Assembly (NCBI GenBank): GCA_028658405.1
Contig: JAKOGY010000022.1
Location: 1-34,728, forward strand
DNA from: Dolichospermum sp. ST_sed8
GTDB lineage: Bacteria; Cyanobacteriota; Cyanobacteriia; Cyanobacteriales; Nostocaceae
Direction: 5' to 3'
DNA: 34,728 nt
Position 1 is the first letter of the stretch; each line of letters opens with the position of its first letter. The notes below the pieces were generated by a model. That model had not been told where the DNA came from and did not search any database. It saw only the letters and a list, made by a program, of their open reading frames with translations. Shown here in pieces: positions 250-34,728 of this stretch. Both the position numbers and the translations under genes were made by a program.

Positions 250-1707
250 TTAAGCCACAACTTCCACAGGTTTGGCTTCTGGTAACAACCGTTTCACACC
301 TTGCTTGACAAAAGCTTCCAACACAGCCATTTTTTGATTTTGCTGGAATACACTTTGCAAAACTTGACGCAGTTTGTCGAGATTTAAAGCACTTCCAGAT
401 TCTAAAGCAATTTCTTGCTGTTCAAAATATGCCACTAAACTTAATCCGGCTACTCTTGTGAGGTAAGCAGCACTAACTCCCTCTACCATTCCCCCAGCGA
501 CAAAGGTAGCAACGTTAGTTTTAAGAATACCTGTGACAGCCCTAGTTGAAAGTTCTACTAAACCTAATTTCAACATTAAACTTCCCATAGTTCCAGCTAC
601 TTGTTGCGCTTGTTCTAAGGAAATTTTCTGCTGATAAATATTACCCAAATCTATGACCATTTGAGCAGTAATCGCCGCAGTTGCTAGAATATCCAAAGCA
701 GGTACGGGATTAGCGAAAGCTGCTGCTGCTGCAATCCATTGATATTGTTCTATAAACGGTGTAGAGCGATCGCGTCTCACGCCATTTAAACAATTTTTAG
801 CTTCAGCTTTTAGTAATAATACTTTGCGGTTGGTGGTATTACAAACTAGCTGTTCTCCTTGCTGTCCCACAACTTCCGTTAATTGTTGTGTCAATTGCTG
901 GATATCTGGCGTTGGTTGTTCCATCCATTCTTGGAAAGAACCATCTTCTTTATGTTTCCGCACTTTCACAGCTACGGGAGAAGCCGCAGTCGCAACTACA
1001 TTTGCACCAATGCGCTGTTTTAATGATTGTAAAACTGTAGCGCGTTCTTCTGGCTGATACTGGTCTTGTTTGTTGAAAACTAGCAATGTCGGCTGTTTTG
1101 CGGCTTTTAGCTGTTGTAAAACCTGAAATTCTGAATCTGTTAAATCACCGTTTGTCAGAAATAAGACAAAATCAGATTTTTGCATTTCTGATAAAGTGAC
1201 AACATCAGAATTTTCACCAACTACCGCAAATAAAGGCGCTGTTTCGGCAAAATGTAAAGACATTCCCGGAAACGCTTGGGCATTTTTTACAACTTCAATA
1301 ATCGTACTTTTACCTACAGATTTTCCACCAGTCACGGCAATGGCAATTTCCTTTCTATCTAGTTCTAAAGGTAATTTAGCCAGGTTTTCTCGGAGAATTT
1401 CTAAAGCAGGATGAGTAGCTGCTTCTTGAGCAAGCTGATTAATTATTACTTCGATTTGAGCGATCGCTTTATCTACAGATGCCCGGTTTACAAGTATATC
1501 ATTTAGCTGTTCACCTAATTGGGGCTGATTTTTGTTGAATAACCACAAACCCCCACTGACAGCTAAAGCACTCAAAAGTCCAAATTCTCCCACTTGAACT
1601 ATTGAATCATGCCAACTGTTTAACATCCACAGGGAGAACGATAGTCCTAGTCCTCCCACTAATATTGGTCGTTGTAACTTCACAATTCTGATTCTCCACG
1701 CGAGCAA
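250..1707 (-). CDS. membrane-associated GTPase with DUF697 domain
   Basis: Predicted P-loop GTPase of 485 residues. Two hydrophobic segments lie near the N terminus (about 12-30 and 42-57). The GTP-binding P-loop GGKSVGKS is at about 127-134 and the base-recognition motif NKQD at about 212-215. The C-terminal third, about 318-460, is the hydrophobic helical DUF697 domain found with such GTPases in cyanobacteria. The first start in frame is TTG, with GGAG 10 bases before it; a GTG at codon 9 is an alternative. The gene stands alone and is transcribed away from the arsenic operon. The family is thought to act at membranes; the exact role is unknown. Confidence 0.85.
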   Translation of the reverse strand: MLAWRIRIVKLQRPILVGGLGLSFSLWMLNSWHDSIVQVGEFGLLSALAVSGGLWLFNKNQPQLGEQLNDILVNRASVDKAIAQIEVIINQLAQEAATHPALEILRENLAKLPLELDRKEIAIAVTGGKSVGKSTIIEVVKNAQAFPGMSLHFAETAPLFAVVGENSDVVTLSEMQKSDFVLFLTNGDLTDSEFQVLQQLKAAKQPTLLVFNKQDQYQPEERATVLQSLKQRIGANVVATAASPVAVKVRKHKEDGSFQEWMEQPTPDIQQLTQQLTEVVGQQGEQLVCNTTNRKVLLLKAEAKNCLNGVRRDRSTPFIEQYQWIAAAAAFANPVPALDILATAAITAQMVIDLGNIYQQKISLEQAQQVAGTMGSLMLKLGLVELSTRAVTGILKTNVATFVAGGMVEGVSAAYLTRVAGLSLVAYFEQQEIALESGSALNLDKLRQVLQSVFQQNQKMAVLEAFVKQGVKRLLPEAKPVEVVA

Positions 1708-1831
1708 AAAGCTTTTACTCCACTTTAGTTTAAAACTTGGTACTCCGATTGAGGTTGGTGAACAAATTTCTTCTGATGCTGAAAACTAGCAAGCGGCTAA
1801 AAACATTCTTATTGCTATCTATAAACAATAC

Positions 1832-1847
1832 ATCAAATTTTTTTGAT
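1832..1847. promoter_or_regulatory. ArsR-type operator 1 (ATCAA-N6-TTGAT)
   Basis: This is a perfect ATCAA-N6-TTGAT palindrome about 107 bases before the pstS-like start. As I recall, this is the element described for ArsR binding before the arsenic operon of Synechocystis. A second, nearly perfect copy lies 53 bases downstream. No arsR gene is in the window, so the regulator would be encoded elsewhere. The match is seen directly; binding is inferred. Confidence 0.6.
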
Positions 1848-1877
1848 TAATTGTTTTATTTAATGATAAGGTAGATA

Positions 1878-1907
1878 TTGACATATCAACTTTTTTTGAA
1901 ATAATAG
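1878..1907 (+). promoter_or_regulatory. promoter with embedded ArsR-type operator 2
   Basis: A TTGACA hexamer at 1878-1883 serves as a -35 candidate. A weak A/T-rich -10 candidate starts at about 1901-1902, giving a 17-18 base spacer. The second operator, ATCAA-N6-TTGAA at 1885-1900, fills that spacer, so a bound repressor would occlude the polymerase site. This arrangement suggests arsenic-induced transcription of the downstream genes. Confidence 0.5.
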
Positions 1908-1953
1908 GTACATAGGACAAATACTCTGCTCACTAATTATACAGGTAAAATCA

Positions 1954-3012
1954 GTGAATAAAACAGCAACCAAATTAGTCTTAACCTTCGGAATATTAGC
2001 ATTAACAACCAGTTTTACAAATACGTCTGGTCTTGCACAAAATATTAAACAACCAACTGAAGCGACAAAAATCACTAACTCTACCACTGACACAATTATC
2101 AAAGTAGACGGTTCTAGTACCGTATATCCCATTACCGAGGCTATAGCCAAAATATACCAATCCAACCCTAAAAATAATAGTCAAGTAAAAGTTAGTATTT
2201 CTGGTACTAGCGGTGGGTTTGAAAAATTTTGTACTGGTAAAATAGATATCAGTAATGCCTCTCGGCCAATTAACCAGTCGGAAATGGCAGCTTGTAAAAA
2301 AAATGGTGTAAGCTACATGGAATTACCCGTAGCTTTTGATGCCCTAACTGTTGCTGTTAACCCCCAGAACAGTTGGGCAAAAGACATTACAGTAGCCGAA
2401 TTGAAAAAAATATGGGAACCTGCGGCTGAAGGAAAAATTACAAAATGGAATCAAGTCCGCGCTTCTTGGCCAGATAGTCCAATTAAATTATATGGTGCTG
2501 GTGGTAAATCTGGAACATTTGATTATTTTACTGAAGCAATTGTCGGTAAAGCCAAAGCCAGCCGCAAAGATTACACAGCCAGTGAAAATGATGATATTTT
2601 AGTTACTGGTGTTAATAAAGATCCTAATGCTTTGGGTTACTTTGGTTATGCTTACTACGAAAAAAACAAAAATAAGCTAAAACTTGTAGCAGTTAATAGT
2701 GGTAAAGGTGCTGTTTTACCATCACCAGAAACAGTAGAAAAAGCCAAATATCAACCACTTTCTCGACCTCTATTCATTTATGTGAATCTTCGGTCTAGTA
2801 AAAACAAAACTTTGGTGTATAATTTTGCAGATTTTTACATTAAAAATGCGGCAAAAACAGCCAGTTCTGTTGGCTATGTTCCTTTATCAGAGGAAGCTTA
2901 CAAACTAAATTTTATCCACTTGTATAAGGGTAAAGCCGGAACAGTATTTGGTGGCAAAGCTGAGTTTAACCTGACTCTTGGGCAATTATTACGCAAACAA
3001 AAGCAATTTTAG
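1954..3012 (+). CDS. PstS-type phosphate-binding protein of the arsenic operon
   Basis: Periplasmic substrate-binding protein of the PstS family, 352 residues, the usual length. It starts at GTG and has a signal peptide (positive N terminus, hydrophobic core, cut near residue 29). Phosphate-binding loops are visible: DGSSTVYP at about 52-59, the SGTSGG and SNASRPI region at about 83-105, and GKSGTFDYF at about 184-192. The gene ends 15 bases before the GAPDH gene, so the two are co-transcribed, and it lies directly behind two ArsR-type operators. No pstC, pstA or pstB is present. A likely role is selective phosphate scavenging under arsenate stress; this is inference from context, and general phosphate uptake is the alternative. 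Confidence 0.88.
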
Positions 3013-3027
3013 TAATTAATAAAAATT

Positions 3028-11704: not shown

Positions 11705-11934
11705 CTACAGAGTTTGCGATTGGCTGACTGTATCTCACTCAAGTGCATACCGCTATATTAGGTCGCGCTTCACTATTGCCCTATTCAGCATTTAAGCTTT
11801 TGAGAATTTGCTGGGCTAACAATTCCTTAATTTCTGTATGTCTGGGTACAGCTTTAATGACCTTTGGCGAATTTATCAAAACAGTTTATAATGAAATAGA
11901 TTTTGGTGAGAAACTTACGGTATGTCAGTAACCC

Positions 11935-12293
11935 AACCCTAAAGGGACTGGGCTTGCAAGAGTAATCAAGCAAGCCGTGCTGACCAGACCACCCACAAGC
12001 GATGTCGAAGGGTAGCCGTTATTTGAGTCACGACACCCACCGAATGCGTAGCTAGTTCCCTGCTCTGTCATTTGCAATTAAACAGTTTTAAGGTAACAGA
12101 AACAGTGTTGCAAGTCTAAAAAGCTTTTATAACGCAGTCGTTGCTAACATTACCCCAGAAATGGGAGTTGGTTTCCAGATTCCAATCAAAAATCTGGTTT
12201 CAATTTAATATCCACAGCGGTTAAAACCGCACGTGTCGCTTCCCTCTCAGGGCTAAAGCCGCTGAGTTTCCCACTTACCGGGTATTCTTATGA
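11935..12293 (+). ncRNA. HEARO-like RNA (IscB omega RNA class), orphan
   Basis: A structured stretch with no ORF. In order it has: a small CCC/GGG hairpin (about 11936-11945); a perfect 7-bp hairpin GGCTTGC/GCAAGCC (11951-11976); a conserved-looking block with GTGCTGACC and GGGTAGCCG; a CCAGATT/AATCTGG hairpin near 12176; GCGGTT/AACCGC (12217-12230); and a final CTCAGGGC/GCCGCTGAG stem. It ends ...ACCGGGTATTCTTATGA, with an ATG at 12290. This order and ending match my memory of HEARO RNAs, which lie directly before iscB start codons and guide that nuclease. Here the frame after the ATG stops after seven codons and no IscB follows. Ends are approximate. Confidence 0.6.
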
Positions 12294-12304
12294 AAAAATT
12301 TCAA

Positions 12305-12383
12305 GGCGGTTAAAACCGCTCGTGCCGTTTCCCTCTCACCGGCTAAAGCCGCTGAGTTTCCCACTTACCGGGTATTCTTATGA
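12305..12383 (+). repeat. second copy of the HEARO-like RNA 3' module
   Basis: This repeats 12216-12293 over about 78 bases with few changes. It includes the GCGGTT/AACCGC hairpin, the CTCA...TGAG stem-loop with GGCTAAAGCC, and the end ACCGGGTATTCTTATGA. The ATG at 12380 opens a frame of only 13 codons. Tandem duplication of the 3' end is the simplest origin. Confidence 0.8.
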
Positions 12384-34052: not shown

Positions 34053-34646
34053 TTATTTTTCTATTCCTTTCAAAAACTTAGTTCTAGCCGTAATAATTGA
34101 AGGCATTAAAACACAATTTACTAATAAATTAATATCTAAATCTGGGAATAATTCACTTTGATTAATTTGCTCATAGTTATCATTTTTGAGATGATATAGA
34201 GACAGTTGATTATTTTCCCAAAACCAAACTTCAGGAATATTAAAACGTTTGTATTTTTCTAGCTTGTCAATACTGCCACTGGTAATATTAACTTCAATCG
34301 CTAAATCAGGATTTTCCTTCTTTTCACCAATATAATAAGATTCATCAGGTTCAAAAGCAGCACTCTTTTCTTTTGCACGACGAGTAGCACTACCGACTGG
34401 GATAATATTTATACCTATTTCACAAGAGTATAATTCTACAAGAAAGCCAAGAATACTCTTAATCATTTCATGTTGTTCACCCACTGTCATAAATTCAATG
34501 TACCCATCAAGATAAGTTATCCGCAAATTTCCTGCATCTGCGGTTAAGGCTTCTATTTTCTCCAATTCTTCCCAAGTGTAATAACCAGGTAAGACAAATC
34601 GCTGTTCAGCAATTGCGGTAATTTTATCTAAGGTTAGGGGAGTCAT
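34053..34646 (-). CDS. Uma2-family (DUF820) putative nuclease
   Basis: A 197-residue PD-(D/E)XK-like protein of the Uma2 family, which is greatly expanded in cyanobacteria. The order YLDGYIEFM (about 45-53), FEPDESYYI (about 97-105), PDLAIEVNI (about 112-120) and the lysine of the SGSIDKLEKY helix (about 124-133) matches the predicted active site. Family function is not settled; nuclease activity is predicted. Unusual: its ATG is the terminal ATG of an RNA-like module (34643-34710) seen also at 12216-12293. Confidence 0.9.
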   Translation of the reverse strand: MTPLTLDKITAIAEQRFVLPGYYTWEELEKIEALTADAGNLRITYLDGYIEFMTVGEQHEMIKSILGFLVELYSCEIGINIIPVGSATRRAKEKSAAFEPDESYYIGEKKENPDLAIEVNITSGSIDKLEKYKRFNIPEVWFWENNQLSLYHLKNDNYEQINQSELFPDLDINLLVNCVLMPSIITARTKFLKGIEK

Positions 34647-34710
34647 AAGACCTCGCGGTATGCGGGAAACTCAGTGTCTTTAGACCTGAGAGGGAAGCGA
34701 CACGGGCGGT
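34643..34710 (-). promoter_or_regulatory. HEARO-type RNA 3' module forming the Uma2 leader
   Basis: Read on the minus strand, this matches 12216-12293. It has CGTGTCGCTTCCCTCTCAGG, a stem-loop with TCTAAAGA, CTGAGTTTCCC, TACCG, and an end CTTATGA, whose ATG is the Uma2 start. In the stem, G-C at 12216-12293 is replaced by T-A here on both sides, a compensatory change. The module continues toward or past the window end. Confidence 0.65.
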
Positions 34711-34728
34711 AATAAAGGCATTGAATCT

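Follow-up and report, generated by a model that had tools for sequence, protein, structure and literature searches.

A Uma2 start codon as the probable ATGA target of an IS200/IS605-type, HEARO-family element in Dolichospermum

At one end of a contig from Dolichospermum sp. ST_sed8 (a genome of 5.78 Mb in 532 contigs), a gene of the Uma2 family, whose members are putative restriction endonucleases, opens directly at the edge of a short, hairpin-bearing module that recurs elsewhere in the same DNA. This arrangement raises the question of whether the module and the protein belong together, or whether they have come to share a position and nothing else. The original prediction, made from the window (that is, the entire contig C144, 34,728 bases in length), held that the end of an omega-RNA had been joined to a different putative nuclease, either through a chance insertion that provided translation signals or as a functional pairing of RNA and nuclease. 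The analyses described here indicate that the module is very probably the end, on the target side, of an IS200/IS605-type mobile element that carries a HEARO omega-RNA and was inserted at a pre-existing ATGA of the Uma2 gene, and that the Uma2 protein is unlinked to that RNA.

The positional observations behind the original prediction were borne out: on the minus strand, positions 34643-34710 match the module at 12216-12293 at 85% (E 8.9e-16), and the first codon of the Uma2 open reading frame is precisely the ATG that closes the module (Table 1). The further proposal that the module supplies that codon is contradicted by relatives of the window gene (for example L092-L103, whose proteins are 79-85% identical), in which ATGACT is found at the same place with no module before it. 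Because these relatives begin in this manner, the Uma2 start codon is ancestral; as read from this comparison, the ATGA predates the insertion and served as its target. The suggestion that an insertion now forms the Uma2 leader is supported, with the element inserting 5' of ATGA.

Table 1. Features of the window and of related elements discussed in the text
Feature	Position	Strand	Remarks
HEARO RNA (RF02033)	11924..12153	+	113.7 bits, gathering score 83; 5' end of short element, sharp boundary GTCAGTAACCC
Far end of short element 11924-12289 (366 nt), with target ATGA at 12290-12293	12216..12293	+	
Second copy of element end, with target ATGA at 12380-12383	12300..12383	+	
Uma2 gene	34053..34646	-	197 aa; Pfam PF05685, E 1.7e-15
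Putative target tetranucleotide ATGA	34643..34646	-	Native Uma2 start codon plus one base
Terminal part (target-side end) of IS200/IS605-type, HEARO-family element	34647..34728	-	Cut by contig end at 34728
Hairpin foot TTTCCC (other strand GGGAAA)	34664..34669	-	Presumed DNA guide selecting the target, a role taken from IS608
Subterminal imperfect hairpin CTCAG-GTC-TAAA-GAC-A-CTGAG	34670..34690	-	Covariation across own-genome copies; similar hairpins at the opposite element end
TTTTAC/ATAA sister subfamily	L402-L431; own contigs C26, C65, C116, C185, C206, C267, C275 and others		

In other respects the window gene is an ordinary member of the Uma2 family (PF05685), with a start common to its relatives, and its sole link to the element is one of position. 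No copy of the module motif (sought in nearly exact form, over at most 300 bases) was found in 108 other fetched Uma2 loci, a set in which the start is poorly aligned in distant members (for example L104 and L109-L117), several loci are the same gene counted twice, and the Uma2 matches of the ST_sed8 genome are represented by three out of six; within this set the module is not recurrently linked with Uma2. No synteny past the Uma2 gene was seen in comparison with the fetched relatives, and a 400-base query drawn from the relative L092 returned Uma2 arrays and scattered repeats, none of them attributable to the left flank of the Uma2 copy.

The nature of the module was clarified by its position within other elements of the same genome. 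At the gathering score of Rfam, the HEARO RNA listed in Table 1 is the sole match in the window, and the module falls outside it. Genome-wide, 43 HEARO matches are found (31 of them above the cut-off), and 26 of the 30 loci read display a sharp boundary on the HEARO side (GTCAGTAAC) that is preceded by differing DNA; the four others (L004, L010, L028 and L029) have a different start on that side. For 29 module-type ends a partner 5' end was identified, at distances of 349-476 nt in 21 cases and 883-1605 nt in eight; two pairings in the window (366 and 456 nt) use a single 5' end, so that the separate elements number at most 28, and those of 883 and 955 nt (L061 and L057) were obtained with a loose motif and may be due to chance. 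In L001 and L002, both of which harbor IscB-like reading frames, the module is the far end of an element of 1.6 kb, and the L001 copy (1605 nt) encodes an intact IscB (427 aa; NCBIfam guided_IscB at 456 bits, the cut-off being 175). Because of the 5'-end pairings and the IscB-bearing L001 and L002, the module is assigned to the terminus that lies far from the HEARO RNA, and its description as an omega-RNA end is not upheld. The IscB gene of L002 (1599 nt) is present as two ORF pieces (1697-3016). The two ends standing in tandem at 12216-12383 of the window fit the insertion of one element at an internal ATGA of another, with either order of events. Two element ends also stand in tandem at L044 (contig C84).

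The copy in front of Uma2 is visible at one end only, over its last 82 nt, and its HEARO portion is deduced from its likeness to complete elements. Its last 86 letters, with the target included, are identical at 85 positions to the short HEARO element L007 and at 84 positions to L024, both of which were read to both ends; because of this match, the Uma2 copy is probably a short HEARO element as well, the remainder of which would be hidden past the contig end at 34728. A search of the genome with the module DNA returned 43 matches at E values of up to 10 (the weakest two being poor), and 42 copies of the hairpin end conform to an exact pattern that was found 0 times in a control.

The hairpin within the module had been reported to preserve its pairing by a switch on both arms, and this is correct: GGC/GCC in the copy at 12216-12293 corresponds to GTC/GAC in the Uma2 copy, and among 17 distinct 33-nt hairpins from the genome 49 of 51 inner-stem cells are paired (against a mean of 32 and a maximum of 40 in 2,000 shuffles). 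The covariation, which had been taken to suggest selection on RNA structure, is family-wide and could reflect either RNA or a hairpin that TnpA binds in the DNA; three RNA folds, taken singly, are only mildly better than those of shuffled sequences (z -1.1 to -1.4).

The most consistent property of these ends is the tetranucleotide that follows them. From 66 regular-expression matches in the genome, 53 ends with at most two substitutions were kept, one of which (C318) is unreadable at a contig end; divergent or partial copies (for example those of C405, C18 and C224) stand outside this count. ATGA comes next at every one of the 52 readable ends, and in 50 of them its distance from the stem arm is exactly 17 nt. 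Within the genus, where 12 of 16 genomes carry such ends, ATGA is found within 14-20 nt after 144 of 147 hairpin ends (a C84 end listed twice was entered once), and one of the three exceptions is cut by a contig end. For six elements, empty sites were identified base by base in relatives, with the flank joined straight to ATGA and no duplication of the target, and nine of ten rebuilt junctions were spanned, by coordinates, in at least one relative. For the tenth (L007), no genome of the genus gave a match across the junction; at the empty site of L022, a 6-base indel located at the junction or immediately past it sets the relatives apart. This evidence pertains to the element family rather than to the Uma2 copy itself. 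One site is occupied in two genomes (G013:C1:1085638-1086161 and L056), and contig C15 of G003 has only about 80 bases there.

HEARO elements reportedly integrate next to ATGA or GTGA. Like the HEARO/IscB OMEGA systems (RF02033; IscB, NF040563), the elements described here possess a HEARO RNA at one end, an IscB gene in a full-length copy and ATGA after the far end; they differ from those systems in that the 21 closest pairings are too short to accommodate IscB. In PMC9755519, HEARO ORFs are treated as IscB, RF02033 is found in 65% of their 5' UTRs, and TnpA is located beside only a few. With the IS200/IS605 family (IS608 and ISDra2), the elements share subterminal hairpins, a fixed and short target, the lack of a target duplication, and candidate guide bases located 5' of the hairpin, and relatives within the genus carry a Y1 TnpA together with the same kind of end. 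In IS608 the guide is a tetranucleotide lying 5' of the hairpin at the end, and it pairs with a target retained in the left flank (PMC5934647); ISDra2 is inserted 3' of TTGAT without duplication (PMC8612924). The targets of IS608 and ISDra2 are TTAC or TTGAT, whereas those seen here are TCAT (that is, ATGA on the other strand) and, in a sister subfamily, TTAT.

That sister subfamily provides a comparison of presumed guide and target. It has the hairpin foot TTTTAC in place of TTTCCC, and of its 47 copies in the genus 30 were read: 27 are followed by ATAA at 17 nt, two by ATAA one base earlier, and one by GTAA. On the transferred strand, the C-to-T change in the target is accompanied by a G-to-A change in the foot, the combination that pairing would demand; one more base of the foot is changed as well. 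The association of TTTCCC with ATGA, and of TTTTAC with ATAA, is a correlation of the kind that target choice by DNA guide bases would produce, the register being that of IS608 by analogy. In tnpA loci of relatives, the same kind of end directly follows tnpA in seven of eight cases (five with ATGA and two with ATAA); at L334, a Y1 TnpA (PF01797, E 1.5e-37) and a TnpB are accompanied by the same kind of end and by a matching hairpin at the opposite end, and hairpins of the CTCAG/CTGAG type are present at both ends of the HEARO copies and of this tnpA/tnpB element alike. In the ST_sed8 genome itself, a tnpA remnant on contig C405 is followed by an end of this kind, and the other tnpA loci (L262-L267 and L269-L273) gave only chance-like matches and no copy of the end. 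No tnpA was seen in the HEARO copies, which may be mobilized in trans by the TnpA of their tnpA/tnpB relatives. The module is one end of a family of IS200/IS605-type elements that comprises HEARO/IscB elements, short derivatives, and tnpA/tnpB elements.

An element that is always followed by ATGA might be expected to meet start codons, and the frequency with which it does so was compared with background ATGA sites drawn from the same fetched loci rather than from the whole genome. An ORF of 60 aa or longer starts at 22 of the 52 ends in the ST_sed8 genome, the background figure being 276 of 1965 sites (14%); in the relative G013 (61 loci read, with 61 of 62 ends used and the C2 copy left out), the corresponding counts are 32 of 61 ends and 109 of 566 background sites (19%). 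The two sets are not fully independent, since the two genomes, G000 and G013, share the downstream site at seven ends, and the same applies to some ATAA-type ends (L424 and L430 among them). The original prediction had also raised the matter of whether the module ends at random with respect to genes, and the answer is divided: the remaining 30 ends do not lie at an ORF of that length, and all 52 are at ATGA. When the ATG was required to be the 5'-most of its ORF, a test conducted on the 29 paired ends, 10 of 29 ends qualified against 103 of 1798 background sites (p 4e-6), the start-like count being 9 of 27 without L061 and the doubled window entry. Outside long ORFs, the figures are 7 of 22 against 71 of 689 (p 0.006) and, at a threshold of 100 aa, 4 of 22 ends compared with 50 of 689 sites (p 0.08), under a rule for 'inside a long ORF' that drops the start-like L007 and L008 (cysS) on account of an upstream in-frame GTG or TTG. 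Because the excess shrinks once ATGA sites inside long ORFs are removed, the purging of insertions that break genes can account for a share of it.

The genes found at these ends are diverse. Of 20 further start-like proteins that were scanned (Uma2 apart, and with the ORF of L044 left out), 12 pass the Pfam cut-off, three fall below it and five have no match; the 12 include cysteinyl-tRNA synthetase (cysS), NuoH, DAC, UPRTase, GrpE (whose start may lie further upstream, the frame being open for 47 codons), DUF29, Pmp3 and DUF1800. Start-like sites in G013 include hemA and another Uma2 gene. The genes cysS, nuoH and hemA are as a rule needed for growth, and because of this the copies of cysS and nuoH, and of hemA in G013, that have an element end at their start are presumably still expressed. 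None of the titles and abstracts returned by a literature search of limited coverage dealt with HEARO insertion at start codons, which constitutes a weak negative.

These observations bear directly on the competing explanations for the locus. A joining of an omega-RNA end to Uma2, such that the RNA guides or regulates the nuclease, would account for the abutment of the module to the Uma2 start and for the conservation of the hairpin, and could draw on the second, different Uma2 gene that has an end at its start in G013 (L369). The module nevertheless lies outside the HEARO model, was found at none of the 108 other fetched Uma2 loci, and adjoins unrelated genes (cysS, nuoH, DAC, UPRTase) in the same manner. 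The encounter itself is unremarkable because the genome contains 116 Uma2 matches (113 above the cut-off), such that 0.43-0.51 of the 22 start-like sites would be expected to fall on one (for an assumed 5,000-6,000 genes); G013 has one Uma2 among 32 start-like sites. On the census of ends and the comparison with Uma2 relatives, a functional pairing was rejected as very improbable. Some of the own-genome Uma2 matches are clustered (for example on C510 and C122). Misassembly at a repeat is scarcely more credible as the origin of the junction: the position at a contig end and the presence of the repeat in dozens of copies are what such an artifact would involve, but Uma2 and 82 bases of the element lie in one unbroken contig, and their junction follows the ATGA rule of the other copies.

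A more serious alternative, possible even if on balance unlikely, is that the element end acts as a mobile 5' leader that is kept at start codons, where it would supply a ribosome-binding site or promoter in replacement of displaced native signals. The excess of start codons above background in both genomes, the result for 5'-most ATGs, and the involvement of growth-needed genes (cysS, nuoH and, in G013, hemA) are consistent with such a role, as is the presence of GAGG in the last 12 bases of 25 of the 52 ends. Against it, GAGG shows no significant excess at the start-like ends (13 of 22, compared with 12 of 30 others; p 0.26), and purging can account for some of the surplus of start codons. 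The candidate role of GAGG in the element end as the cause of the start-codon excess was dropped, no significant difference having been found.

The explanation that is strongly favored remains the insertion of an IS200/IS605-type element at a pre-existing ATGA, and transposition is read here from the comparison of sequences. Such elements, which carry a HEARO omega-RNA with or without IscB, would move as a single strand (in the manner of IS608 and ISDra2) and insert 3' of a defined tetranucleotide, which here is TCAT on the transferred strand and ATGA on the other. Recognition of that tetranucleotide, which would remain in the flank, would depend on its pairing with guide bases in the hairpin foot, as in IS608 and ISDra2. 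The ATGA opening a pre-existing Uma2 gene would be one such site, and because the element targets ATGA the insertion would fall exactly on the start codon, abutting it and now forming the DNA just upstream of Uma2, which is presumably still expressed from the insertion-bearing copy. Uma2 is in this respect an ordinary victim of an element that is of a known type and has an instructive target, and nothing points to a novel pairing of RNA and nuclease.

The idea of a fusion between an omega-RNA and a nuclease is replaced by a simple rule, namely that the element reads ATGA and so meets start codons. A broader and distinctly doubtful proposition is that this is a mobile-leader family, in which 40-50% of insertions lie on the first codons of ORFs, genes needed for growth included, and bring new signals for translation or transcription, and in which the omega-RNA and IscB protect insertions by cutting the empty allele; if this were true, the family would rewire the expression of many genes through insertions at start codons. 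The insertions also provide many natural cases in which to test gene survival with a transposon directly on the start codon, and the ATGA and ATAA subfamilies form a natural pair for the DNA-guide rule of the IS200/IS605 family.
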